NCBI GenBank assembly: GCA_938045315.1
Contig: CALINM010000050.1
Span: forward strand, 1 to 40,015
DNA: 40,015 nucleotides
Direction of reading: 5' to 3'
Source of the DNA: an uncultured bacterium
GTDB taxonomy: Bacteria > CALINM01
Of the stretch, positions 1,642 through 38,448 are shown in pieces. Position numbers and translations under genes: made by a program. The notes under the pieces are model-generated. The model saw nothing but the letters and a program-made list of their open reading frames with translations, did no database searches and was not told where the DNA came from. Position 1 is the first letter of the stretch, and every line of letters begins with the position of its first letter.

Positions 1642-2415
1642 ATGTATTTTGCAGGGCTTGATGTGGGTGCCCGATATACCAAAACTTTAATAATTGATGG
1701 TGATGCAAGAGTTTTATCAAAGAAAATGAGTACATCTGGTTTCGATAACAATATAATTTCGAAAAATTTACTCAACAACCTGTGTATGGAACTGGGCATT
1801 ACATTAGAGGAGATAAATAAGATAGGAGTTACTGGTTGTGGTAAAAAAAATATCGATTTTGCAAATTATGAGTTTTCAGAAACTATGGTAGCAGCAAAAT
1901 CTGTATTTTTTTTTAATAAAAATGTAAGAACAATAATAGAGGTGGGAGCTGAAGAAAGCAGGGTTGTGAAATTAAATAGCGATGGCAGGATAATTGATTC
2001 AGTGATTAATGAAAAGTGTGCTGCGGGGACAGGTACATTCGTTGAGCTCATGGCAAGAACTCTGGAGATAACACTTAAAGATTTTAGTGAGTTATCCATG
2101 AAGTCAGAAAAGAAGATCCCTATGAATGCCCATTGTATTGTATTTGCTGAGTCAGAAGTTGTTTCGTTAATCCACTCAGGTGTGGACAAAAAAGACATTG
2201 TAAGGGCTGTAAATGATGCTATAGCAAGTAGAATTGCCTCTATGGCAAGAAGGGTCAAAGTGGAAGCAGAAGTTGCTCTTATAGGGGGGCTTGCAAAAAA
2301 TTCTGGATTTGTTTTTTCGTTAAAAAATAACCTTGAATTGGATAACATTGTAATACCAGACGATCCAGAATATATGGGTGCCTTTGGTGCTGCACTTTTA
2401 ACAAGGGAGTTATGA
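1642..2415 (+). CDS. Benzoyl-CoA reductase ATPase subunit, BadF/BadG/BcrA/BcrD family (BzdP/BcrD-like)
   Basis: GLDVGARYTKTLII, EVGAEESRVVKL, NEKCAAGTGTFVELMA, GGLAKNSG, GAFGAALL: ASKHA ATPase motifs with Cys ligands of the activator family. Confidence 0.85.
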   Translation: MYFAGLDVGARYTKTLIIDGDARVLSKKMSTSGFDNNIISKNLLNNLCMELGITLEEINKIGVTGCGKKNIDFANYEFSETMVAAKSVFFFNKNVRTIIEVGAEESRVVKLNSDGRIIDSVINEKCAAGTGTFVELMARTLEITLKDFSELSMKSEKKIPMNAHCIVFAESEVVSLIHSGVDKKDIVRAVNDAIASRIASMARRVKVEAEVALIGGLAKNSGFVFSLKNNLELDNIVIPDDPEYMGAFGAALLTREL

Positions 2416-2436
2416 TTCTTTTTTGAGAGGAATAGG

Positions 2437-3318
2437 ATGTTAATGGGGAAAAAAGATTATTGGAGATGGTCAGAAAATGTTTATATAGATAGAAATAAGG
2501 ACTGGAGGCAGGGTGAAATTATAACCTGTGGTATTGATGTTGGCTCGGTAAGTACTAAAGCTGTTATCATGGTTGATGGTAGTTTGTATGCTTATAGCGT
2601 TATAAGAACGGGAGTAAATGCTCAGGAAAATGCAAAAAAAGCATTTTTCCCCATGGAAGAGGAGACGGGAATCAAAATTGAGAATTGCAGTTATATCGTT
2701 GGTACAGGTTATGGCAGAATTAATATCCCTTTCGCCCACAAAACAATTACTGAAATTGCATGTCATGGTAAAGGTGCAAGTTTTGTGGGAGGGAAAAAAA
2801 TAAGAACCATTCTTGATATGGGTGGACAGGATTGCAAGGCTATTCATATAGACGAAGAAGGTAGAGTTACAAATTTTCTTATGAATGATAAATGTGCCGC
2901 GGGAACAGGAAGGGGACTGGAACTACTTGCAGAACTCCTGGAAATACCAATAGAAGAATTAGGTACAAGATCTTTCGATATTGATGAAGAACCTGAACCT
3001 ATAAGCAATGTTTGCGTTGTTTTTGCAAGAACAGAAGCATATGGTTTGTTAAAGAAGGGGTGGTCGAAGAACAAAGTGCTTGCAGCCTATCTTAGGGCAA
3101 TAGCTGAAAGAGTGTCTTCTTTAATCATGAGAATAGGTGTGGAACCAGAGTTTTTTGTATCCGGAGGTATTAGCAAAAACGTGGGAATTGTAAAAAGGAT
3201 TGAAAGGATAATTGGTCTGGAAGCTGTTAAGGTTGATATTGATTCCCAGATTATTGGTGCTCTTGGTGCAGCCATATTTGCAAAGGCATTATATGAAAAA
3301 GAAAGAGGTATAATTTGA
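2437..3318 (+). CDS. Benzoyl-CoA reductase ATPase subunit, BadF/BcrAD family (BzdQ/BcrA-like)
   Basis: KKDYWRW...ITCGIDVGSVSTKAVIMVDG, DMGGQDCKAI, NDKCAAGTGRGLE, FVSGGISKN, GALGAAIFA. Confidence 0.87.
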   Translation: MLMGKKDYWRWSENVYIDRNKDWRQGEIITCGIDVGSVSTKAVIMVDGSLYAYSVIRTGVNAQENAKKAFFPMEEETGIKIENCSYIVGTGYGRINIPFAHKTITEIACHGKGASFVGGKKIRTILDMGGQDCKAIHIDEEGRVTNFLMNDKCAAGTGRGLELLAELLEIPIEELGTRSFDIDEEPEPISNVCVVFARTEAYGLLKKGWSKNKVLAAYLRAIAERVSSLIMRIGVEPEFFVSGGISKNVGIVKRIERIIGLEAVKVDIDSQIIGALGAAIFAKALYEKERGII

Positions 3319-6508: not shown

Positions 6509-7699
6509 ATGAAAGAAGCTTATAATGACATAGTTTTTGTATCCGCTGTAAGAAGTCCTATGGGAAAGTTTGGTGGCACACTCAGAGATATGCCAGTATA
6601 TGAATTAGGTGGACATGTAATTAAAGAAGCTCTAAAAAGATGTTGTATTCTACCCCATGAGATTGATGAAGCGATTTTAGGTAATTGCAGGCAGGCTGGA
6701 AATGGTCCAAATCCCGCAAGGAGTGCAATTCTTTTAGGTGGAGTAGACAAAAAAGTGCCAGCAAATACTGTAAATATGGCATGTCCATCGGGTATGCTCA
6801 GTATGTATTATGCTATAAGAGCAATAAAAGATGGTTCAAATATTGTTCTGTGTGGCGGTATGGAGAGTATGAGTACAATACCTTATCTATTAAAAAATGT
6901 AAGGTGGGAAGGCTTCAGGATGGGTGACAGGGTTCTTATGGATGGTTGGGGAGACAGTATTGATCCCATTGTTAATATGGGCATGGGTATGACGGCGGAA
7001 AATCTTGTGGAAAAATATGGATTGAAAAGGGAAGAATTAGATGAATTTGCTGTTGAGAGTCATTTGAAAGCAGCTAAAGCAAAGAATAGTGGTTATTTTA
7101 AAGAAGAGATTGTTCCAATACCGGTTAAAACAAAAGATGGGGGTGAGATTATTTTTTCAGAGGATGAATCTATAAGGGAAGACACGAATTTAGATAAAAT
7201 GGCTAAAATTCCTCCTGCTTTTAAAAAAGGGGGATGTGTTACAGCGGGTAACTCCTGTGGTCTTACAGATGGTGCTGCAATGCTTGTTGCTATGAAAAGA
7301 GATGTGGCTAGGGCTCGTGGACTGAAGCCCCTTTTCTCATTGGTAAATTTTGCCCAAACGGCTTGTGAAAATGCATATATGGGAGAAGGACCTGGGTATT
7401 CAATTCCCATGGTGCTGGAAAAATCAGGCCTGACACTTAATGATATTGACTTAATAGAGGTCAATGAAGCCTTTGCAGCACAGATGCTTACAAATGAGAG
7501 GATGCTTAAATGGGATAGAAGTAAAGTTAATATAAATGGTGGGGCTATTGCTCTAGGACATCCAACAGGTTGTAGCGGTGCAAGGATAGTAGTTACTCTT
7601 TATTATTCTTTAAAAAGACTGGATAAAGAACTAGGACTTGCAGCAATTTGTGGTGCCGGTGGTGTAACTACCGCGTGCATCATAAAAAGAGAAAGTTAA
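6509..7699 (+). CDS. Thiolase (acetyl-CoA C-acyltransferase)
   Basis: VRSPMGKFGG, NMACPSGM (active Cys), EVNEAFAAQ, NGGAIALGHPTGCSGAR, CGAGGVTTACI; ATG at 6509 with RBS. Confidence 0.92.
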   Translation: MKEAYNDIVFVSAVRSPMGKFGGTLRDMPVYELGGHVIKEALKRCCILPHEIDEAILGNCRQAGNGPNPARSAILLGGVDKKVPANTVNMACPSGMLSMYYAIRAIKDGSNIVLCGGMESMSTIPYLLKNVRWEGFRMGDRVLMDGWGDSIDPIVNMGMGMTAENLVEKYGLKREELDEFAVESHLKAAKAKNSGYFKEEIVPIPVKTKDGGEIIFSEDESIREDTNLDKMAKIPPAFKKGGCVTAGNSCGLTDGAAMLVAMKRDVARARGLKPLFSLVNFAQTACENAYMGEGPGYSIPMVLEKSGLTLNDIDLIEVNEAFAAQMLTNERMLKWDRSKVNINGGAIALGHPTGCSGARIVVTLYYSLKRLDKELGLAAICGAGGVTTACIIKRES

Positions 7700-7740
7700 T
7701 CTACATATTTTTAAAAAGTCTTTTTAATAGGGAGGTATAT

Positions 7741-8487
7741 ATGATTGATCTTAAAGGTAAGGTTGCTCTTGTAACAGGAGGTTCAAGGGGTATTGGTGCT
7801 GAGATAGTTAAAACATTAGCTAAATGTGGGGCTGACCTGGCATTTAATTATGTAAAAAGTGAGGATAAGGCACTTTCTTTAAAAAAAGAAATTGAAGATA
7901 TGGGCAGAAGGTCGTTTATTTATAAGTGTGATGTTGTTGACTACCAGGATGCTGAGAATATGGTCAAAGAAGTTATTGCAAACCTTGGGGGGATACATAT
8001 ATTGGTTTGCAATGCTGGGGTCAACTGGGATGGCGTACTCTGGAAAATGACACCCGAGCAATGGAATAGAGTCATCTCAGTTGATCTAACTGGTACTTTT
8101 AATTTTATGAGGGCAGTAGCACCTATTTTTAAAGAACAAAATTATGGGAAAATCGTTAATATAACCTCTATTAATGGTTTAAGGGGTAAGTTTGGACAGA
8201 CGAACTACTCAGCAGCCAAATCAGGTGTTCATGGTTTAACAAAAGCAGCTGCTAAAGACTTAGGGAAATTTGGTATAAATGTTAATGCTGTAGCACCGGG
8301 TTTTATATTAACAGAAATGGGCGAATCCATGCCCGATGAATTCAAAAAAATAGCTATTGAAGAAAGTGCATTAAAAAGACCTGGACTTCCAGAGGATGTG
8401 GCAAACCTTGTAGCTTTTCTTGTATCTGATTTGGCTAAACACATAACTGGTGAGATCATTAAAGTAGATGGTGGGCAATATATTTAG
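7741..8487 (+). CDS. Short-chain dehydrogenase/reductase (FabG-like; candidate 3-hydroxyacyl-CoA dehydrogenase)
   Basis: VALVTGGSRGIGAE, CNAGVNWDG, NYSAAKSG, VAPGFILTEM; ATG at 7741 with AGGGAGG. Confidence 0.9.
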   Translation: MIDLKGKVALVTGGSRGIGAEIVKTLAKCGADLAFNYVKSEDKALSLKKEIEDMGRRSFIYKCDVVDYQDAENMVKEVIANLGGIHILVCNAGVNWDGVLWKMTPEQWNRVISVDLTGTFNFMRAVAPIFKEQNYGKIVNITSINGLRGKFGQTNYSAAKSGVHGLTKAAAKDLGKFGINVNAVAPGFILTEMGESMPDEFKKIAIEESALKRPGLPEDVANLVAFLVSDLAKHITGEIIKVDGGQYI

Positions 8488-8555: not shown

Positions 8556-9602
8556 ATGCTGGAATTTAAAAAGGTTATGGAGAGAACATTTATGGTTGAT
8601 TCAGAGGGGAAGCTATTTGAACAAATAATAGAACAAAGGGTAGATCCTTTAACAGGAAATGTTGCTTCTATAAATACTTTTTTGAGCGAAAAAGCAAAGG
8701 CATTTCTGGGAAACTCTGATATTGAAGTAATGAAAGAATTAGAATCTAAAACTAAAGAGAATTGCCCTTTTTGCCATGTCTTTGAGAAGGGAACGAAGTA
8801 TGTGAAATCTTTTTGTCCAGAGGGTCACTTTGTACTTGAAAATAGCGTAGCAATGCCAAATCTATTTTCCAAGTGTACCTTTGATTCTGTGTTAATAATC
8901 AACTATAAAAATCATACTCTCTTCCCTAAAAAAATAGATACTCATGATTTTGCAAATTCCATAACTTTAGCAAAAGAAATTTTAGAGAGGGCATTGCAAT
9001 ATGATAAGGAGCTTGTTCATCACATTTTAGGTATGAATTTTCTTAATCCCGGTGGTTCAAGTGTACCCCATCCTCATTTTCAGTTACACATAAGAAAGAT
9101 CCCCTATTCAGGGGTCGATAGAATAATAGAACTTTCGAAAATATATTTTAAAAACAGTGGAGAAAATTTTTGGCAGTGTCTTTACAATGAAGAGAAAAAA
9201 AAATCGGAAAGATTTATTGCTGAAGAGGGTGATGTTTTTTGGTTAGCTCCCTTTTCCCCTTCCCATCAGAGAGAGATATGGGGTATTTTGAAGGGAAAAT
9301 CAAGCTTATTAGATATTAACAAAGAGGATATACAAAATTTTGCAAGGGGTATTTCCAAGATTGTCTCTTATTATGAGGATATAAATAATCATCCCTTTAC
9401 TTTTGCCTTTTTTTCATCACCAGATCCTGAAAGGAGAGATTATTTTTGGCTTCAATTAAGAATATGTTCCAGGCCAGCTTTCAAAAATCTTTATAGCAAT
9501 TATGATACATGGTTTGCCCCTAAATTTGTTGGCGATGAGGCACATACAACAGCGCCTGAAGAATATGCAAAACAGTTAAGAGAAAAATGGAACTTATTAT
9601 AG
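8556..9602 (+). CDS. Galactose-1-phosphate uridylyltransferase-like / HIT-superfamily protein
   Basis: NCPFC, LGMNFLNPGGSSVPHPHFQLHIR (HPHxQ HIT/GalT-type triad). Confidence 0.65.
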   Translation: MLEFKKVMERTFMVDSEGKLFEQIIEQRVDPLTGNVASINTFLSEKAKAFLGNSDIEVMKELESKTKENCPFCHVFEKGTKYVKSFCPEGHFVLENSVAMPNLFSKCTFDSVLIINYKNHTLFPKKIDTHDFANSITLAKEILERALQYDKELVHHILGMNFLNPGGSSVPHPHFQLHIRKIPYSGVDRIIELSKIYFKNSGENFWQCLYNEEKKKSERFIAEEGDVFWLAPFSPSHQREIWGILKGKSSLLDINKEDIQNFARGISKIVSYYEDINNHPFTFAFFSSPDPERRDYFWLQLRICSRPAFKNLYSNYDTWFAPKFVGDEAHTTAPEEYAKQLREKWNLL

Positions 9603-9614
9603 AAGGAGGGAAAA

Positions 9615-10385
9615 ATGTTTGAGTATATTAGATACAAAAAAGAAGGACGGATTGCTGAAATAGTTATTAATAAGCCACCTTACAATGTGCTTGACATTAA
9701 AACAATGGATGAAATCAATTCCGCCCTTGATGATGTTAAGATTTCACAGAGTGAATTAAATGTATTATTAATAACATCAGAAGGAGATAAGGCTTTTTCA
9801 GCTGGTGTTGATGTGGCTGACCATACAAAGGATAAGATGGAGAAGATGCTTGATTCTTTCCATGGCATTTTCAGAAGGCTTGAAATGCTTGACATTGTGA
9901 CAGTCGCAGGTGTTAAAGGTGCAGCGCTTGGTGGGGGATGTGAACTTGCAATAGGATGTGATTTAATAGTTTGTGCAGATAATGCAAAATTTGGACAGCC
10001 AGAGATAAAATTAGCAGTTTTTCCACCTGTTGCTATTACCTATCTAACCCAGATAGTGGGAAGAAAGAGGGCTTTTGAAATAATAGTTCTTGGTGAGAAT
10101 ATAGGGGCTGAAGAAGCAAAGGTTATGGGGCTTGTAAATCAGGTATTTTCTCTTCAAAATTTTAATGAAAAATTAAAAGAGTATTTAGAGAAATTTGAAT
10201 CAATGAGTGGTTCTGCATTAAAGGTTACCAAGCAAACCTTTAAAAAAGCTTTAAATTTTGATTTTGAAAGAACACTATCCATAGCAGAAGCATTGTACAT
10301 AAAAGATTTGATGAGCTTAGATGATGCTAATGAGGGGATCAACTCATTTTTGGAGAAAAGAAAGCCCCTTTGGAGACATAAATAG
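9615..10385 (+). CDS. dch: Cyclohexa-1,5-diene-1-carbonyl-CoA hydratase (Dch/BamR/BzdW-like)
   Basis: Crotonase fold: GVKGAALGGGCELAIGCDLI, SAGVDVADHT, INSFLEKRKPLWRHK; followed directly by the had-like gene. Confidence 0.85.
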   Translation: MFEYIRYKKEGRIAEIVINKPPYNVLDIKTMDEINSALDDVKISQSELNVLLITSEGDKAFSAGVDVADHTKDKMEKMLDSFHGIFRRLEMLDIVTVAGVKGAALGGGCELAIGCDLIVCADNAKFGQPEIKLAVFPPVAITYLTQIVGRKRAFEIIVLGENIGAEEAKVMGLVNQVFSLQNFNEKLKEYLEKFESMSGSALKVTKQTFKKALNFDFERTLSIAEALYIKDLMSLDDANEGINSFLEKRKPLWRHK

Positions 10386-10431: not shown

Positions 10432-11499
10432 ATGGCAGTAGATAAAATAAAAACTTATCAGATGATAGAACCGGGAAAATTATTAAAAACAGAGATACCA
10501 AAACCAGAACTCAAAGAAGATGAAGTTTTGGTGGAGATTAAAGGTTGTGGTGTTTGTCATACAGATCTTAGCTACTTTTATCAAGGTGTGCCCACTGTAA
10601 CAAAACCCCCATTGACACTTGGGCATGAGATTTCTGGGGTTATTGTTGAGGGCAAAGGGGAGTTAATTGGTAAAGAAGTTATAATTCCAGCAGTTATGCC
10701 ATGTAATAGTTGTCCAATCTGTGCAAAGGGGAGAGAAAATAGATGCCTCAACCAAAAAATGCCAGGAAATAGTTTAGGTATTTACGGTGGGTATTCCAGT
10801 CACATACCTGTACCTTACAGAGATCTATGTTTTATTGAAAATAGAAAAGATTTTCCCATTGAAGTTCTTGCAGTTGTTGCAGATGCAGTAACTACCCCAT
10901 ACCAGGCAGCTTTAAGAGGGGGGTTAGAGGTTGGTGATTTAGTAATTGTTATAGGTGCAGCTGGTGGTGTTGGAACCTATATGACACAAATGGCAAAGGC
11001 TTTTGGTGCTAAATGTGTTATTGGTTTTGATATTGCAGAAGAAAAGCTTGAAAATATGAAAAATTATGGACTTGATTATGCTATAAACCCAAAGGACAGG
11101 GATATAAAAGAATTGAAAGAAATTTTTAAAAACATATGTAAGGAAAATGGTTATCCTTCAAATTATGGCTGGAAAATATTCGAGTGCACAGGTACTAAAC
11201 CAGGGCAGGAGTTAGCTTTAGAATTTCTTTCCTTTATTGGTAGACTTGTAGTTGTAGGATATGGACCTCATAAAATTGAATATATGATCTCAAAACTGAT
11301 GGCCTTCGATGCTGAAATTATAGGCACATGGGGTTGTCCCCCAAAACATTACAACAACGTTTTAAAACTTGTTCTTGATGGAAAAGTTCAGATAAAACCC
11401 TTTGTAGAAATAAGACCTATGAGCCAAATTGAAGAGGTTTTTGAATTAGCTCACCACGGTAAATTAACAAAAAGAGTGGTCTTAACCCCCGATTTTTAA
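10432..11499 (+). CDS. had: 6-hydroxycyclohex-1-ene-1-carbonyl-CoA dehydrogenase (Had/BamQ/BzdX-like)
   Basis: Zn-ADH: GCGVCHTDLSYFYQGVPTVTKPPLTLGHEISG, CNSCPICAKGRENRC, VIVIGAAGGVGTYM; genomic context. Confidence 0.87.
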   Translation: MAVDKIKTYQMIEPGKLLKTEIPKPELKEDEVLVEIKGCGVCHTDLSYFYQGVPTVTKPPLTLGHEISGVIVEGKGELIGKEVIIPAVMPCNSCPICAKGRENRCLNQKMPGNSLGIYGGYSSHIPVPYRDLCFIENRKDFPIEVLAVVADAVTTPYQAALRGGLEVGDLVIVIGAAGGVGTYMTQMAKAFGAKCVIGFDIAEEKLENMKNYGLDYAINPKDRDIKELKEIFKNICKENGYPSNYGWKIFECTGTKPGQELALEFLSFIGRLVVVGYGPHKIEYMISKLMAFDAEIIGTWGCPPKHYNNVLKLVLDGKVQIKPFVEIRPMSQIEEVFELAHHGKLTKRVVLTPDF

Positions 11500-11733: not shown

Positions 11734-11787
11734 AGAAATGGACACCTATTTAATAAAAAATAAACGATGTTAATTAAGGAGGATAAA

Positions 11788-12918
11788 ATGGGATTAGAAT
11801 GGATTCCAAGAGATAATGAATTGAAAAATCACTCTCTTTTTGGTGATGAACATTTTGGAAAAGAAGCACCATGTACAATTTATGAGAAAAGGCCATTGAA
11901 AGATCCTGATGGTAGAATAGTTGAAGATTTGTATGTGTCCTGGATTATATTAAATAACCCTGCCCAGTACAATTCTTACACTACAGAAATGGTGAAGGGT
12001 GTTATTGCAGGTTTTCAAAAAGCTTCGTCTGATAGATCTGTTGTAGCAGTTGTATTTACAGGTGTTGGTGATAAAGCTTTTTGCACGGGTGGTAATACGG
12101 TTGAGTATGCATATTACTACTCAAAACGACCTAATGAGTATGGCGAATATATGGATCTTTTTAATGCCATGGTTGATGGGATTCTTAACTGCAAAAAGCC
12201 AGTTATATGCAGGGTTAATGGTATGCGCGTTGCAGGGGGACAGGAAATAGGTATGGCATGTGATATCTCAGTGTCGTCTGATTTAGCAGTCTTCGGTCAG
12301 GCTGGTCCAAAACATGGGTCCGCTCCGGATGGTGGAGCAACGGATTTTTTACCATGGTACCTTTCTATGGAAGATGCTATGTGGAACTGTGTATCCTGTG
12401 AGGTCTGGAGTGCTTATAAGATGAAATTTAAGGGGTTAATTTCAAAAGTTGTGCCTGTTTTGAAAAAAGATGGGAAATGGGTTAGAAATCCTCTTGTTAT
12501 AACTGAAGATTTTATTAGAGATGGGGAAATTGTCTATGGAGAGAATAAAACAGGAGAGGAACTTGAAAAAGGTAAAGCCTTGATGAAAGAATGTACAGTG
12601 GATTTTGAACTCCTTGATAAAGCGGTTGATGAAGTAGTCTGGAAATTTGCCAATCTGTTCCCCCAATGTTTGATGAAATCAATCGATGGAATTAGAAGTA
12701 AGAAAAGGTATTTCTGGGATATACTTAAAGTGCCAAATCGCTACTGGCTTGGTGCTAATATGAACTATGAAGCTTTTCCAGGCTTTACAGCCTTTTCCAC
12801 AAGGAAAATAACTGGTCATGATCTTGTTGATTTCATAAAGTTTAGGCAGTTAATTGCTAAAGGTGCTTTAGCTGATGATACCACTTGGGAAGAGATATTG
12901 CCAAAGCCAAAAAAGTAG
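11788..12918 (+). CDS. oah: 6-oxocyclohex-1-ene-1-carbonyl-CoA hydrolase (Oah/BamA/BzdY)
   Basis: LFGDEHFGKEAPCTIYEKRPLKDPDGR, NPAQYNSYTTEMVKGVI, DKAFCTGGNTVEYA, GMRVAGGQEIGMACDISVSSDLAVFGQAGPKHGSAPDGGATDFLPW: strongly characteristic of BamA; ATG at 11788 after AAGGAGG. Confidence 0.95.
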   Translation: MGLEWIPRDNELKNHSLFGDEHFGKEAPCTIYEKRPLKDPDGRIVEDLYVSWIILNNPAQYNSYTTEMVKGVIAGFQKASSDRSVVAVVFTGVGDKAFCTGGNTVEYAYYYSKRPNEYGEYMDLFNAMVDGILNCKKPVICRVNGMRVAGGQEIGMACDISVSSDLAVFGQAGPKHGSAPDGGATDFLPWYLSMEDAMWNCVSCEVWSAYKMKFKGLISKVVPVLKKDGKWVRNPLVITEDFIRDGEIVYGENKTGEELEKGKALMKECTVDFELLDKAVDEVVWKFANLFPQCLMKSIDGIRSKKRYFWDILKVPNRYWLGANMNYEAFPGFTAFSTRKITGHDLVDFIKFRQLIAKGALADDTTWEEILPKPKK

Positions 12919-16476: not shown

Positions 16477-17604
16477 TTGACTTTAAAATTTAAAAGGGAG
16501 AGATTCGAAAATAAAATGGATTATTTAGGGTTTTTAAATGAGATTGCTAAGAGTAGAAAAGTTATTGGTTACTTTGACACATATTTCCCGGAAGAATTTG
16601 CCTATGCCATGGGGCTTCATCCAGTAAGAATAATGAGTGATGATGAGGAACCAGTTAGGGCTAATGAGTTTTTGCAGGGGTTTTGTTGTCCCTATGCAAA
16701 AAATATACTTGAACAGGCACTGAAGAAGAAGCTTAATTTTTTATCTGCTGCTATTTTTACAAGATATTGTGATTCATTAAGGGGCGTTTATGAGGTGTGG
16801 AAATCAGAAAAACTGAGCCCTGTTGTTGAGTTTATAAGATATTCACAGGTTGTAAGGGAAACGGCAAAGGATTACCTGAGTTTAGAGTTTAAGGATGTTT
16901 TTAATAGAGTAAAAAAAGCACTGGGATGTGATTATGATTATGATAGCCTTAAATATGCCATATCAAAAGTTAATAAGAAGAGAAAAGCTCTTCAAAGACT
17001 TTATTCAATGAGGAAGGAAGGGAAATTAAATATTTCATCTGAAGATTTTTATAAAACAGTCTTTTCGTCTACCTGGAAGCCCATCGATGAGTTTTTAAAA
17101 AGCTGTGAAGCTTTATTTTTACGAAACAATTCTGTAAACGTGAATTTTGATGATAAAAAAGTTGTACTCTCAGCCACAGAACTTGATAATTTAAATTTTT
17201 TCAAGTTACTTGATGAAATAGGATTTTTCATAGTTAGTGATGATATAGCCAGTGGAACGAGATATGTAAAAGATTTTGTATCTGAGGAGGGTGATACACT
17301 TGATGATCTCATTGAAAATATCGCTTTAAGATACATAATGAAACCGCCATGTTCTGTAAAAGATCCTTCGGATAGGAGGATTGATGAGCTTATAGAAGAG
17401 GTTAAAACAAGCGGTGCGAAGGGTGTTATTTTTTTCAGAACCAGGTTCTGCGATTCTGAAGGCATAGAATATGCATTTATAAAAAGAAGGTTAGAAACTG
17501 AAAAAATTCCCCATTTATATATTGAAAGTGACCACAGGCTTTCAAATTACCAACAGCTAAGAACAAGATTGGAAGCCTTTTATGAACAAATAGTGGGGAT
17601 TTAA
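16477..17604 (+). CDS. bcrC: Benzoyl-CoA reductase subunit C-like (2-hydroxyacyl-CoA dehydratase family; BcrC/BzdN)
   Basis: VIGYFDTYFPEEFAYAMGLHPVRI, QGFCCPYAKNILEQAL, IFTRYCDSLRGVYEVW, FRTRFCDSEGIEYAFIKRRLETEKIPHLYIESDH. Confidence 0.85.
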   Translation: MTLKFKRERFENKMDYLGFLNEIAKSRKVIGYFDTYFPEEFAYAMGLHPVRIMSDDEEPVRANEFLQGFCCPYAKNILEQALKKKLNFLSAAIFTRYCDSLRGVYEVWKSEKLSPVVEFIRYSQVVRETAKDYLSLEFKDVFNRVKKALGCDYDYDSLKYAISKVNKKRKALQRLYSMRKEGKLNISSEDFYKTVFSSTWKPIDEFLKSCEALFLRNNSVNVNFDDKKVVLSATELDNLNFFKLLDEIGFFIVSDDIASGTRYVKDFVSEEGDTLDDLIENIALRYIMKPPCSVKDPSDRRIDELIEEVKTSGAKGVIFFRTRFCDSEGIEYAFIKRRLETEKIPHLYIESDHRLSNYQQLRTRLEAFYEQIVGI

Positions 17605-17654
17605 CAGGATAATGGGGGAATACTAAGTAGTTTAAAGAAGAAAAAGGAGATCTG

Positions 17655-18866
17655 ATGGGAAAAAGATTGAAGGCCACAGAGAGTCTAAAAAGGTTGATAA
17701 AAAACTACTACGATGAGTATTTTTCCTGGGCAAAGGAAGGCAAGCCTACAGCATGGCTTAATGTGGGTGTGCCCTGTGAAGTATTTTATGCTATGGATGT
17801 TTTCCCCTTTTATCCCGAAAACTATGGTGCCATGTGCGGTGCTCAAAAGGTAACACCAGAACTTTCTCAAATAGCAGAATATCAGGGTTTTACGAACGAT
17901 ATATGTTCCTATGCGAGGGCGAATATTGGCTCACTCCTTTCCAAAAAAGGTCCTGTGGGAGAGCTTCCAATTCCCACTATTCAGGTGGAGACTACTAATT
18001 CTTGCATAATGATTATGACCTGGTGGAGGGCGGTGGAAAAATTGTTTAATGTCCCCACATTTGTTATAGATGCTCCATTGGTAAAGATGGATTCTGAAGG
18101 TCATCATCTTGATTATATGGAAATGGAACTTAAAAGGATGATTGATTTTATAGAAGAAAAAACGGGCAATAAATTTGATAAAGATAGGTTTACAGAGATT
18201 GTTAAAATCTCAAATGAAGGCAAAAGGTTATGGGCAGAAATACTGGAACTTAGAGCAAATGTCCCATGCCCGATGAATGCGGGAGATATATTTACACATA
18301 TGTTTCCCATGGTAGCATTAAGGGGTACACCCCCATATGTGGAGCATTTAAAATTTCTGAGAGACGAACTGAAGGAGAGAATTACCAATAGAGATTTTCC
18401 TGTTCCCCATGAAAAAGTGAGGCTCCTCTGGGACAATCTTCCCATATGGTTTGACTTAAGACTTTTTGATGAACTTGAACAGTATGGGATAATATTTGTC
18501 ATCGATACCTACACACAGGCCTGGGGCCCTCGCTTTATGGGTATAGTGGATGAAGAAAATCCTATTAGAAGCTTCGGGTATTATTTAGGTTCAGGATTTC
18601 TGAATGTACAGATTGAGAGAAGATGGCAACTTATGCAGGATTTAATCAAAGAATACAAAGTTGATGGTGTTGTCTTCCATTCCGATAGAAGTTGTAAACC
18701 CTACTCCCTTGTTCAACCAGAACTTTCAAAATTAATAAGGGATAATCTTAGTGTTCCCTCATTGATAATAGAGTCTGATCACAATGACCAGAGTGGTTAT
18801 GATAGAAATCGTGTAATAGAAAGAATAAAAGAGTTTAGTCAAATGATAGAAATGGGGAGGAAATAA
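17655..18866 (+). CDS. bcrB: Benzoyl-CoA reductase subunit B-like (2-hydroxyacyl-CoA dehydratase family; BcrB/BzdO)
   Basis: WLNVGVPCEVFYAMDVFPFYPENYGAMCGAQK, NDICSYARANIGS, VFHSDRSCKPYSL, LIIESDHNDQSGYDRNRV. Confidence 0.88.
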   Translation: MGKRLKATESLKRLIKNYYDEYFSWAKEGKPTAWLNVGVPCEVFYAMDVFPFYPENYGAMCGAQKVTPELSQIAEYQGFTNDICSYARANIGSLLSKKGPVGELPIPTIQVETTNSCIMIMTWWRAVEKLFNVPTFVIDAPLVKMDSEGHHLDYMEMELKRMIDFIEEKTGNKFDKDRFTEIVKISNEGKRLWAEILELRANVPCPMNAGDIFTHMFPMVALRGTPPYVEHLKFLRDELKERITNRDFPVPHEKVRLLWDNLPIWFDLRLFDELEQYGIIFVIDTYTQAWGPRFMGIVDEENPIRSFGYYLGSGFLNVQIERRWQLMQDLIKEYKVDGVVFHSDRSCKPYSLVQPELSKLIRDNLSVPSLIIESDHNDQSGYDRNRVIERIKEFSQMIEMGRK

Positions 18867-31789: not shown

Positions 31790-31818
31790 AAGCTCTGGCT
31801 TTCATTGAGCCAGAGCTT
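31790..31818. terminator. Bidirectional terminator between convergent gcdH and mqnA
   Basis: AAGCTCTGGCT-TTCATTG-AGCCAGAGCTT, 11-bp perfect stem at convergent gene ends. Confidence 0.8.
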
Positions 31819-32639
31819 TAAATAAATTTTAATTTGGGTGTTTCGTCGATAAAATTATTTTTCTTAAGTAATTCAAAAAAAAGATTTAAACTATCCACAT
31901 GCCTTGCTTCTAAACTGAAATCTAAATGCTCCCAATATTCCATAATCTGCTCTGAATTAAAGTCATACTTTCTTTGATAAAATTCGGCTAATAATAGTTT
32001 ATTGTTCAAAAAAAAGTCATATGACTTATATAAAGTGTCAATTGCATTTTTTATACCTTCTTTTTTTTTAGACTCTCTGGGTATTTGCCATAGAGCAAAT
32101 GTGAAGGGTAGTCCCTTGGTCTTTTCATACCATATTTTTGCTAAATCATATTTAAATTTAAAATTTAGGGGATAGGAGTTTTTTAAATCGTAATTAAGGG
32201 CTATGTCACCAATGTGAAGAATGCCCACAACTTTTGCTGTACTGGAAAAATTATTAGTAAAGGGATCAAAGACTTCATAGTTTAAATGAACGTTGTAAAA
32301 TTCAGTAAAAATAATTTTTGTTAGTAATGAAGAGGTTGCTGAGTGGGAAGTTATAAGAATAGTACCCCTTTCTATTTCTTCAATTCTTACCTTTGTAAAT
32401 AATAGTATACTTTTAACGTCAGATTTGCTTGAGATGGAGAGCTTGGGTACAACATAATGGCCATGTATTATCTCTACAGATGAAGAGGGTGAAATATCCA
32501 CATAACCTAAAAGAAGCATCTTATTTAGATAATATGGGGTTCCAGTGATAATTCTACCTTCGAAAGGTATTTTTTTTAGCAATATTGCCCCGTGTACGGG
32601 TATACAATTAAGATAATCGATGTGTCCTAATGTAACCAT
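31818..32639 (-). CDS. mqnA: Chorismate dehydratase MqnA (futalosine menaquinone pathway)
   Basis: LGHIDYLNCIPVHGAI, GYVDISPSSSVEI, ITSHSATSSLLTKIIF, LHIGDIAL, LAKIWYEKTKGLPFTFALW. Confidence 0.85.
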   Translation of the reverse strand: MVTLGHIDYLNCIPVHGAILLKKIPFEGRIITGTPYYLNKMLLLGYVDISPSSSVEIIHGHYVVPKLSISSKSDVKSILLFTKVRIEEIERGTILITSHSATSSLLTKIIFTEFYNVHLNYEVFDPFTNNFSSTAKVVGILHIGDIALNYDLKNSYPLNFKFKYDLAKIWYEKTKGLPFTFALWQIPRESKKKEGIKNAIDTLYKSYDFFLNNKLLLAEFYQRKYDFNSEQIMEYWEHLDFSLEARHVDSLNLFFELLKKNNFIDETPKLKFI

Positions 32640-34200: not shown

Positions 34201-36114
34201 ATGATAAACTCAGTCGATTTATTGCTATTATTAATTTCAATCACTATATCGTTGTTTGGTTTCATTAGAATTTTCCAGAGATGGAAAATTGGCCAGAATG
34301 ATCCAAATATAAAAAGCAATTTTAAAATAGCTTTAAGCAGAGTTCTTAAGCATACAGATGTTTTACGTGAAAGAGAAATGGGATTCTTTCACCTGTTCCT
34401 TTTCTATCTCTTTGTTGTTGCAATCTTGCTTGTAATAATTTTTCAATTTCCCATTAAGTTCATAAAGCCCATTGCGTTCGTACAATCTATTGCGCTTGAT
34501 ATAATTGGTTTTATTGCCCTTTCAGGAGTTATTTACTTTATTTATCGTAGAATAAAGGTTAAAGACAAAGGGTTTGACAATAAAAGAGAAGATTTCATTA
34601 TACTCTATTTGCTTTTGATAATCTTGTCTACGGGGTTTCTAATGGAGGCCCTAAGGGTTAAAGTTGAGGGAAGATACTATTTTTCTCCCATCGGTACTGT
34701 TTTTTCTATTATAATTCCTAACATAAAGGACATTTACCCAGCACTATCTTTGATCTTCTGGAGAGCTCACTTTTTTTCAATACTAGTATTTATTGCTTAT
34801 CTTCCCTATTCTAAGTTAGCACACATTATATTGATCCCCTATAATTACATGAACCAGAGTGTCGCACCTAAAGGTGTTTATAAACTTCTTGATCTCGATA
34901 ATGCAGAGGAGTTTGGAGCAAATAAACTGGCAGATCTAACATGGAAAGATCTCTTAGATTTAGATACCTGTGTAAGATGTGGAAGATGTCAGGATAACTG
35001 TCCTGCAAATATAACTAAAAAGCCTCTTTCTCCCAAGAAGGTGATTCAGGACCTAAAGAAGGTTCTCGATAATTATAAGAATAATCCATCAGCACCACTC
35101 ATAAATGAAGATATAACAGATGAGGTAGTGTTTGCTTGTACTACGTGTAGAGCCTGTGTGGAAAATTGTCCAGCTGGTATAGATCATCTGAATAAAATGA
35201 TAGAACTCAAGAGATATCTTGTTTTAATGGAGGGCTCAATTTCACCAGAAGCACAGCTGTTATTCAAAAATCTTGAGAGAAATGGTAATCCCTGGGGCAT
35301 GCCCGCTTCTACAAGAGGGGATTGGGTAAAGGATTTAGAAGTGCCATTTCTTGCTGAGCTGGAAAACCCAGAAGAGATTGATTTTCTATTTTGGCCCGGT
35401 TGTGCTGGTGCCTTTGATGATAGATATATGAAGGTTGTTAAAAGGTGTGTGGAGATATTCAAAAAGGCGGGTATAAAGTTTGCTGTGTTAGGTGAGGAAG
35501 AGACATGTTGTGGTGATCCAGCGAGGAAATTGGGCAATGAGTATCTTTATGATATGCTAGCAAGACAAAATGTGGAAACTATGAACAATTATAAAGTAAA
35601 GAAAATAGTAACCTCATGTCCCCATTGTTTTAATACCCTTGCCAAGGATTACAAACAGATTGATGGTAATTATGAGGTTTTAACACACGCGCAATTAATA
35701 CTATCTCTGTTAAGAGACGGAAAAATAAAGCTTATTAATAAGTTTGATGGCAAAGTTGTTTATCACGATTCCTGCTATTTGGCCAGATATAATGGTATTT
35801 ACGATGAGCCAAGGGAGATTATAAAATCAACGGGTGTAAGATTGGTTGAGTTTGAAAGAAGGGGTATAAAAGGATTCTGCTGTGGTGGTGGTGGTGGAAA
35901 TATGTTTCTTGAAGAACATGCACCTCGTATGAATGATACAAGGCTTTCTCAAATACTTGAATCTCCACAGGGCGAGGGTTTAACAGGTGTTGCTGTAGCC
36001 TGTCCCTTCTGTCTGACCATGATGATAGATGCTACAAAGACATATAATAAAGAGGAAGAAATTTCAGTAAAAGATTTATCGGAGCTTGTTTACGATGCTA
36101 TGGAAAAAAATTAG
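34201..36114 (+). CDS. Membrane-bound HdrD-like Fe-S oxidoreductase (candidate ETF:menaquinone electron transfer protein)
   Basis: N-terminal TM domain; CVRCGRCQDNCPA and CTTCRACVENCPAG; two CCG domains (ETCCGDPARKLGNE...SCPHCF; FCCGGGGGNMFLEE...CPFC). Confidence 0.88.
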   Translation: MINSVDLLLLLISITISLFGFIRIFQRWKIGQNDPNIKSNFKIALSRVLKHTDVLREREMGFFHLFLFYLFVVAILLVIIFQFPIKFIKPIAFVQSIALDIIGFIALSGVIYFIYRRIKVKDKGFDNKREDFIILYLLLIILSTGFLMEALRVKVEGRYYFSPIGTVFSIIIPNIKDIYPALSLIFWRAHFFSILVFIAYLPYSKLAHIILIPYNYMNQSVAPKGVYKLLDLDNAEEFGANKLADLTWKDLLDLDTCVRCGRCQDNCPANITKKPLSPKKVIQDLKKVLDNYKNNPSAPLINEDITDEVVFACTTCRACVENCPAGIDHLNKMIELKRYLVLMEGSISPEAQLLFKNLERNGNPWGMPASTRGDWVKDLEVPFLAELENPEEIDFLFWPGCAGAFDDRYMKVVKRCVEIFKKAGIKFAVLGEEETCCGDPARKLGNEYLYDMLARQNVETMNNYKVKKIVTSCPHCFNTLAKDYKQIDGNYEVLTHAQLILSLLRDGKIKLINKFDGKVVYHDSCYLARYNGIYDEPREIIKSTGVRLVEFERRGIKGFCCGGGGGNMFLEEHAPRMNDTRLSQILESPQGEGLTGVAVACPFCLTMMIDATKTYNKEEEISVKDLSELVYDAMEKN

Positions 36115-36964
36115 TTTAATAATATTTATTCTTTGTATACCTGTTATGGCACAGGCTGCTTACAGGGAACAAGATAAAAAATGTATGGAAGAGTGCCATG
36201 GTAAGGATAGTTTTTATTATACCCCTGCATCTAATTGGGGTAATTTACATGCCCTGTATGTAGATTATGAAAAGTTTCTAAAGTCGAAGCATGGGATTTT
36301 TACATGTCTTGATTGTCATCCCGATGCAGATGCAGGCGAAAAAGCCCATTTTCCTTCAAGAAAAAATGTTAAATGTGAGGCATGTCATGGCCCTTATACC
36401 TTGATGCCTGAGAGTATAAAAAAAGTGTTTCAAGAAAAGGGCATATCAATGCCAGAAAACAAAAGGGTATATTTAGATTATATTGATAGTTTGCATGGAA
36501 AAGCCTACTATCAACAAAAGAGAAATGCTCCTTACTGCTCGAATTGTCATGACCCTCACAATGCAAATAAAAACGATAAAGATTTTTCTGTAAGTCTGGA
36601 AAATCTTCCCGGGACATGTGGTAAATGTCATCCTTCTCAAACAAAGCTTGAAAAGACAATATTTTCCAGACTCGCATTATTTAGAATAAATGGACACCAA
36701 AAGGGTGATTCAGCAACAGATTTTACTGCTAAAAATTGTGTTTCCTGCCATCAAGGTGATGCAGCCCATGGCAAAAGAGCAAATGAGCATGTTTGTATGG
36801 ATTGTCATAGGAGAAAATCAAGCTTTCTTGCTTCAGATTTTCATGGAAATGAACTACCCGGGCTGGCAATATTGATGAATTTTGGGCTTTTATTCGGGCT
36901 AGTTTTAGTAGGTGGCTTTGTAATAGCATACAAGCTATCAGAGAAAGTTAAAAAGAAGGAATAG
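36095..36964 (+). CDS. Multihaem cytochrome c with C-terminal membrane anchor
   Basis: Six CxxCH motifs (CLDCH, CEACH, CSNCH, CGKCH, CVSCH, CMDCH) plus one CxxxCH (CMEECH); signal peptide; C-terminal TM helix. Confidence 0.9.
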   Translation: MLWKKISLIIFILCIPVMAQAAYREQDKKCMEECHGKDSFYYTPASNWGNLHALYVDYEKFLKSKHGIFTCLDCHPDADAGEKAHFPSRKNVKCEACHGPYTLMPESIKKVFQEKGISMPENKRVYLDYIDSLHGKAYYQQKRNAPYCSNCHDPHNANKNDKDFSVSLENLPGTCGKCHPSQTKLEKTIFSRLALFRINGHQKGDSATDFTAKNCVSCHQGDAAHGKRANEHVCMDCHRRKSSFLASDFHGNELPGLAILMNFGLLFGLVLVGGFVIAYKLSEKVKKKE

Positions 36965-36966
36965 GC

Positions 36967-37548
36967 ATGAAAAAAAGATATGCAATAGGAATAGATTTAA
37001 ACAAATGTATTGGTTGCCATACCTGTGAGATTGTATGTAAATTAGAAAATAAAGTTCCCATATCAGTTTGGAGAATATGGATAAAAGAGGGATTAAAAGG
37101 AAAATATCCACTTGTAAGGAAGGTATTTTTACCAGTTTTGTGTAATCACTGTGAAAATCCCACATGTGTAACAGTTTGTCCTGTAAAGGCTTCAATCAAA
37201 AGAGAAGATGGAATTGTTATTGTAGACCCCCATAGATGTATTGGTTGCAGGTATTGCATGGCAGCATGTCCCTATGGGATGAGACATGTTAATCCATTAT
37301 TAGGCATCGTACAAAAATGTGATTTCTGTTTACATAGAATCGAAAATAATAGTAAGCCAGCCTGTGTAGCTTCATGCCCTGCAAAAGCATTTGTTTTCGG
37401 AGATTTAAATGATAAAAATAGTGAAATCTATAAATTTGTCATAGAAAATAATATTTCAGTTTTAAAAGAAGATACGGGCAATCTTCCTCAGGCTTTTTAT
37501 GCAGGATTAGATTTTACACTTGCTGATAAAAAGGGGATGCCGGAGTAA
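36967..37548 (+). CDS. PsrB/PhsB/QrcC-like [4Fe-4S] electron transfer subunit
   Basis: CIGCHTCEIVCKLENKVP, CNHCENPTCVTVCPVKAS, CIGCRYCMAACPYGMR, CDFCLHR...CVASCPAKA: four-cluster ferredoxin subunit. Confidence 0.9.
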   Translation: MKKRYAIGIDLNKCIGCHTCEIVCKLENKVPISVWRIWIKEGLKGKYPLVRKVFLPVLCNHCENPTCVTVCPVKASIKREDGIVIVDPHRCIGCRYCMAACPYGMRHVNPLLGIVQKCDFCLHRIENNSKPACVASCPAKAFVFGDLNDKNSEIYKFVIENNISVLKEDTGNLPQAFYAGLDFTLADKKGMPE

Positions 37549-37551
37549 ACT

Positions 37552-38448
37552 ATGGATACAATGCTTATATACAATGTTCCCATGCAAGAGACCTTTGGTG
37601 TATGGATTGCTGTTTATTTCTATCTAACTGGGCTTAGTGCGGGATCTTTTATACTATCAACATTAAGATATGTTTTTGGATTCGAACAGTTTAAACCTCT
37701 TGCAAAACCAGGTGTGGTTCTTGCCGCTTTACTTTTAATTCTGGCTCCTATGGCACTTTTGATACATTCTGGTCAACCAATGAGAGCGTGGCATCTATTT
37801 GTATTTATAAATCCCTCTTCACCTCTGTCATGGGGGTCTTTCTTATTGACAATTTATCCCATTATTTCTGTGATTTATGGGTACTTTATGTTTAAAGAAA
37901 ATAAAAAATGGGCAAAGATAATGGGTATTATTGGTATACCATCTGCAATTGCTGTTCATGGGTATACAGGTTTTGTACTTTCTGTGGCTAAAGCTCGAGC
38001 ACTCTGGGCTACCCCTATTATGCCTTTATTGTTTCTTATATCAGCAATAATTTCAGGTATTGCTATGATGATGATTGTAAATGTAATACAGGGGTACTTC
38101 TTCACAAAGGAAAGAAAAATTAACACTGACTTACTCTTTATTCTTGGTAAGATGCTAATATGGATTATTATCTTCGATCTTTTCTTGGTTTTTTGTGATA
38201 TTATAGCTCACTATACGGGACACAAAGAGGGTATAGAAGTAGTAAAGCATATGTTTACGGGCACTTTTGGGTTTCTCTTCCTCTTTGCTGAAGTGTTAGT
38301 GGGTAAGGTAGTGCCTCTTGTTGTATTTTCTGTGCCTAAGTGGAGAAAAACATCTATTTACTTAATCATGGCGATAATAATTATGATTGGAATCTTTATT
38401 ATGCGTTATAACGTAGTGGTCGGTGGGGAACATATCCCTATTGTTTAA
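37552..38448 (+). CDS. NrfD/PsrC-like integral membrane quinone-interacting subunit
   Basis: WIAVYFYLTGLSAGSFIL, LIHSGQPMRAWHLFVFINPSSPLSWGSFLL; multiple TM segments. Confidence 0.87.
   Translation: MDTMLIYNVPMQETFGVWIAVYFYLTGLSAGSFILSTLRYVFGFEQFKPLAKPGVVLAALLLILAPMALLIHSGQPMRAWHLFVFINPSSPLSWGSFLLTIYPIISVIYGYFMFKENKKWAKIMGIIGIPSAIAVHGYTGFVLSVAKARALWATPIMPLLFLISAIISGIAMMMIVNVIQGYFFTKERKINTDLLFILGKMLIWIIIFDLFLVFCDIIAHYTGHKEGIEVVKHMFTGTFGFLFLFAEVLVGKVVPLVVFSVPKWRKTSIYLIMAIIIMIGIFIMRYNVVVGGEHIPIV

Follow-up and report, generated by a model that had tools for sequence, protein, structure and literature searches.

A GalT-fold enzyme, apparently intact and unlike the Leloir type, encoded within a benzoyl-CoA gene cluster

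Within the HIT superfamily, an invariant glutamine in place of the third histidine of the nucleophile motif marks the branch of transferases and phosphorylases. Two described members of this branch come closest to P0001, the protein that we discuss here. The first is the ADP-glucose phosphorylase of Arabidopsis (At5g18200; structures 1z84 and 2h39), which has the same two-domain layout and HxHxQ nucleophile motif and is the best fold match, with 18% identity in the structural alignment; it differs at the residues that are specific to the family of P0001, P101-N102, W229 and D317. The second is GalT of Escherichia coli (1hxq, 1gup), about 13-14% identical to P0001, which shares with the family the HPHxQ motif and a Cys-x-x-Cys/His/His metal site. 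More remote within the HIT/GalT fold are the yeast Ap4A phosphorylase Apa2 and the mycobacterial Rv2613c, both with low TM-scores. The GalT-like families DUF4931 and DUF4921 are matched weakly in Pfam searches by 12 and 15, respectively, of 69 members of the P0001 family and not by P0001 itself, and the solved DUF4931 protein 4qvu, a fold match at 8e-8, has a shorter chain, of 265 residues, of which 217 are modelled. Hint-type hydrolases, finally, are short single-domain proteins with the third histidine of HxHxH, whereas P0001 has 348 residues, two domains and an invariant Gln176. In open-licence papers, mostly judged by title, we found none describing a GalT-like gene in benzoyl-CoA clusters; the one paper that pairs the two looks coincidental, as far as its title and term counts tell.

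The gene lies at positions 8556 to 9602 of the forward strand of the window, the whole stretch of 40,015 nucleotides from an uncultured bacterium that was analysed. Its reading frame starts with ATG and is open throughout its 348 codons, whereas stops abound when the complementary strand is read in the same register, and its GC content, about 33-34%, is in line with that of the neighbouring genes. The two motifs from which a sequence-only reading had recognised a GalT/HIT-type protein are CPFC (residues 70-73, positions 8763 to 8774) and HPHFQLH (residues 172-178, positions 9069 to 9089). Since they recur in eight full-length relatives of 46-53% identity and in a fragmentary one, the gene is real and its motifs are beyond chance.

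All the features of the cluster given here are on the forward strand. Two BcrAD/BadFG ATPase subunits are encoded at 1642 to 3318, and two HGD-D subunits of the BcrB/BcrC type (PF06050) at 16477 to 18866. As a curated model (TIGR03192, 437 bits, over cut-off) identifies the second BadF-type subunit as BzdQ, the benzoyl-CoA reductase of the window is, judged by its sequence, of class I, bzd-type and ATP-dependent. The genes run in one direction from AFOR and ferredoxin-like genes through a thiolase gene to an SDR/FabG-like oxidoreductase gene (7648 to 8487), P0001, a dch-like gene (9615 to 10385), had (10432 to 11499) and oah (11767 to 12918), and then, on the same strand, to amidohydrolase, PanE-like and thiolase/OB genes, the two HGD-D subunits, an acyl-CoA ligase gene and beta-oxidation genes. 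Both had, the 6-hydroxycyclohex-1-ene-1-carbonyl-CoA dehydrogenase gene (TIGR03201, 495 bits), and oah, the 6-oxocyclohex-1-ene-1-carbonyl-CoA hydratase/hydrolase gene (TIGR03200, 578 bits), exceed their cut-offs; the cyclohexadienoyl-CoA hydratase/ECH-type dch-like product, with 138.9 bits for TIGR03189, stays under its own and is named by context. From the SDR stop to the start of P0001 there are 68 nt, and from the stop of P0001 to the dch-like start 12 nt, with AGAAGGAGGG preceding that start. The true start of the SDR gene is probably further in than 7648, because its domain begins only near residue 33-38. The earlier description of P0001 as sitting between SDR and dch among benzoyl-CoA genes thus holds, with had, oah and BzdQ all over their cut-offs. 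It had also remarked on a lack of sugar genes nearby, and indeed there are none near P0001 among the scanned genes of the window; a GalT-type gene of the ordinary kind, recognised by Pfam, is found elsewhere in the genome, on contig C45, flanked by genes for pyruvate kinase and starch synthase.

What kind of enzyme, then, would this gene specify? No Pfam family matches P0001 at E<=0.01, and its sole NCBIfam match is GalT NF008724, at 1.2e-6, with 28 bits where the cut-off is 448. A profile of the family (69 members, P0001 included) nevertheless retrieves E. coli GalT from the PDB at 1.2e-18, and an AlphaFold2 model built from that 69-member alignment (pLDDT 93.2, pTM 0.92) finds 1z84/2h39 as its top PDB matches (E 5e-17, TM up to 0.69/0.78), followed by 1hxq. 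The matches to 1z84, 1hxq and 1gup have probability 1.00 and extend over the full length with its two HIT-like domains, so that this confident model assigns P0001 to the full-length GalT/ADP-glucose-phosphorylase fold, in the GalT branch of the HIT superfamily. Nine residues (C70, C73, H120, N161, G167, H172, H174, Q176 and R219) are identical in 95 of 95 aligned family members. Among them are the predicted metal ligands Cys70, Cys73, His120 and His172, the putative nucleophile His174 and Gln176; on the assumption that our knowledge of GalT carries over to these residues, P0001 is apparently a catalytically intact nucleotidyl-His enzyme.

It is tempting, when the best fold matches and the only NCBIfam match all point to these enzymes, to see in P0001 an ordinary Leloir GalT or an ADP-glucose phosphorylase that came to lie here by chance. 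We consider this very unlikely, as the NF008724 score falls far below its cut-off, Pfam is silent, and the residues that contact the hexose are replaced. E. coli K311, Y316, E317 and Q323, which we take to be the hexose-phosphate contacts seen in the 1gup complex, stand in the profile alignment opposite D317 of the family and what follows it; there the profile has D, q, k and v, respectively, and none of the four is kept. The AGFExGxG-type C-terminal motif of the GalT-type paralogues, presumably diagnostic for ADP-glucose phosphorylase, is likewise replaced in P0001, and a tree sets the family apart from the group of these paralogues. With its hexose contacts replaced and a separate Pfam-recognised GalT-type gene in the genome, P0001 does not look, from its sequence, like a Leloir enzyme, which agrees with the earlier suspicion of a GalT-like protein outside the ordinary Leloir type.

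Hydrolysis of acyl-adenylates by a Hint-like enzyme, as had been proposed, or of aminoacyl-adenylates, would be at home in a cluster that has two acyl-CoA ligases, and distant HIT-fold proteins do appear in the fold search from rank 26 onward. The third histidine of HIT hydrolases is, however, glutamine in 95 of 95 family members, as in transferases and phosphorylases, and the match to two-domain GalT is full length; the proposal is therefore disfavoured, and we hold it to be highly improbable. Activity on adenylylsulfate in the manner of ADP sulfurylase (APAT), or on Ap4A in that of Ap4A phosphorylase, would fit the presence of many relatives in sulfate reducers, and Apa2 and Rv2613c are among the fold matches, at ranks 21-25. 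Yet the Apa2 match is weak (TM 0.37/0.43, rmsd 12), the 11 hits at E<=1 of the family profile against the PDB include no Ap4A phosphorylase, and the family extends to lineages that are not known for sulfate reduction, all of which makes such an activity markedly improbable.

Scanning the contigs of species genomes with P0001 alone as query gave no match, whereas an alignment of six relatives recovered 228 loci, 80 of which were fetched. Four of these 80 are 48-53% identical to P0001 and the remainder 24-34%, the latter from sulfate reducers, Desulfotomaculum-type Firmicutes, Archaea, Chloroflexi and others; a plasmid search returned two distant, uninformative matches only. The family is thus a large one, mostly of anaerobes, for which neither Pfam nor NCBIfam has a model; within the GalT fold it forms an uncharacterised branch outside the Leloir type. 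To the four, which belong to the P0001 subclade, genome searches added further members in genomes G214, G436, G474, G480 and G485 (the coordinates given for G427 are those of G214, a genome that is 100% complete). Across nine sampled genomes this subclade spans 45-53% identity, and in the tree its nine members form a fully supported group on a long stem, some of the deep joins of that tree possibly reflecting long-branch effects. Residue 282 is Asn in 86 of 86 other family members and in 6 of 6 GalT-type paralogues, and Thr in 8 of the 9 members of the subclade, possibly a change of specificity.

Two genomes close to that of the window, G001 and G002, from the same genus and the same family, have no oah, and their sole family member is a distant relative, placed last in an ilv-leu operon; P0001 was therefore probably acquired by the lineage of the window, or else lost in both of them. 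In these related genomes (L031:1974-11026, L032:2925-9747) the distant member, 25-28% identical to P0001, is the last gene of an operon which in G001 comprises, by Pfam, acetolactate synthase subunits, ilvC, psd, a CDP-alcohol phosphatidyltransferase gene, leuA, leuC and leuD; the genes of G002 correspond by size, and leuD also by sequence.

If P0001 were dedicated to anaerobic benzoyl-CoA metabolism, it might repair stalled acyl-adenylates as a regulatory or repair nucleotidyltransferase, or recycle AMP and ADP beside the ATP-dependent reductase. Its place between SDR and dch in a unidirectional run of genes speaks for this, and so does the presence of oah in the genomes of all four closest relatives of the contig scan (G060-G063), where the family gene and oah are on different contigs. 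In the order to which one of these, the metagenome-assembled Myxococcales genome G062, belongs (117 genomes), the subclade is present in 8 genomes, oah in 16 and both in 5, that is, oah accompanies 5 of 8 carriers against 11 of 109 others (Fisher p 0.0011); in a spirochaete order of 46 genomes the single carrier is among the four with oah, and the combined p for both orders is about 0.001, values which overstate independence, since the carriers are kin; a shared anaerobic lifestyle acts as a confounder. Against such dedication, a sample of 386 genomes drawn broadly from the bacteria contains 18 others with oah, all 18 of them without a family member at E<=1e-12, and 3 of the 8 sampled carriers in the order (G427, G436 and G480) have neither oah nor HGD-D. 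HGD-D itself is found in 9 of 12 family carriers and in 13 of 105 others of the same order (p 1e-5), with a fainter excess between bacterial families, where it is present in 8 of 13 carriers and in 109 of all 385 genomes, a link that the shared anaerobic lifestyle could explain.

Genomic linkage, moreover, is confined to the window. The sequence-only reading had called for a survey of the neighbourhoods of homologues for dch, had and oah; none of these genes was seen near the family gene in the nine subclade loci (L042-L045, L143, L155, L158, L160 and L162), short views included, L155, L158, L160 and L162 being of about 4 kb or less and L043 and L143 reaching about 2 kb on one side. A link to the pathway, which it had entertained, is upheld in part: a conserved place beside dch, had and oah is not supported, co-occurrence with oah points both ways, and the enrichment in the subclade leaves open a weaker functional link to aromatic metabolism. 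On balance, dedication to the benzoyl-CoA pathway appears unlikely.

Neighbouring genes, called with a composition-aware ORF caller (a few calls in high-GC loci are possibly wrong) and clustered, were lineage-specific, none recurring across lineages. In Desulfotomaculum-type genomes they are, for example, a gene for a long membrane-type protein and a PFK-like gene, and in Dehalococcoidia coaX/coaBC-like genes. In two metagenome-assembled Dehalococcoidia genomes (L065:2863-5870, L115:2314-5420) a gene resembling type III pantothenate kinase follows the family member, and in L065 a CoaBC-like gene comes next, both names being given by reading the sequences. With no neighbour common to several lineages, guilt by association was dropped as a guide to the function of the family. 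An AMP-forming ligase is a close same-strand neighbour in 4 of 94 loci, against 1.4% of other genes (p 0.04, uncorrected for kinship and drawn from two lineages only), a single hint towards adenylylated by-products as substrate, to which we attach little weight.

We are thus led to a reading that we hold to have about an even chance of being right, in which P0001 is an intact non-Leloir enzyme of the GalT fold that recycles nucleotidylated by-products and was recruited here as an accessory. The mechanism is most likely, by analogy with GalT, either a ping-pong transfer through nucleotidyl-His or a phosphorolysis, with a substrate other than a hexose. With the phosphate held by Gln176, His174 would attack the alpha-phosphate of the substrate and so become covalently nucleotidylated; a small acceptor, for which inorganic phosphate is the likeliest candidate, would then take over the nucleotide, and an adenylylated or otherwise nucleotidylated by-product would thereby be recycled to NDP. 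A hexose phosphate is an improbable substrate, and a first guess would be acyl-AMP or ApnA, formed by AMP-forming acyl-CoA ligases as adenylylated by-products; no residue or neighbour of P0001 pinpoints nucleotide or acceptor. The other members of the subclade lie outside aromatic clusters, and the placement within a benzoyl-CoA cluster, found in the genome of the window alone, probably marks a recruited accessory enzyme rather than a core step. A more ambitious version would see in the subclade a previously unrecognised enzyme of nucleotidyl transfer or phosphorolysis, rescuing acyl-adenylates or dinucleotide by-products in anaerobic CoA-ester metabolism and recruited into the benzoyl-CoA operon; this we regard as quite unlikely. 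Were it true, the clean-up of nucleotidylated by-products would be a missing accessory activity of that metabolism. Be that as it may, a family with 228 loci in one scan of species genomes, and with no Pfam or NCBIfam model to itself, consists of apparently active enzymes.

Several observations were made along the way. A metagenome-assembled genome assigned to Candidatus Hodarchaeum mangrovi, an Asgard archaeon, has had-, dch-, AFOR- and ferredoxin-like genes near an oah gene of 562 bits (L152, G064:C41:2000-21900), and appears to carry a benzoyl-CoA ring-cleavage cluster, a binning error being possible. In metagenome-assembled genomes labelled Myxococcales, Anaeromyxobacter and Deltaproteobacteria (L151, L153 and L154) oah adjoins BcrB/BcrC-like (HGD-D) genes, with had alongside oah in two of the three. 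On the 3' side of the cluster of the window, genes at 34201-38448 for a CCG/Fer4/nitrate-reductase-gamma-like protein, a multihaem cytochrome-like protein and an NrfD protein suggest a membrane electron-transfer complex, and a VitK2_biosynth gene of the MqnA/MqnD type lies on the minus strand at 31818-32639, after an acyl-CoA dehydrogenase gene.
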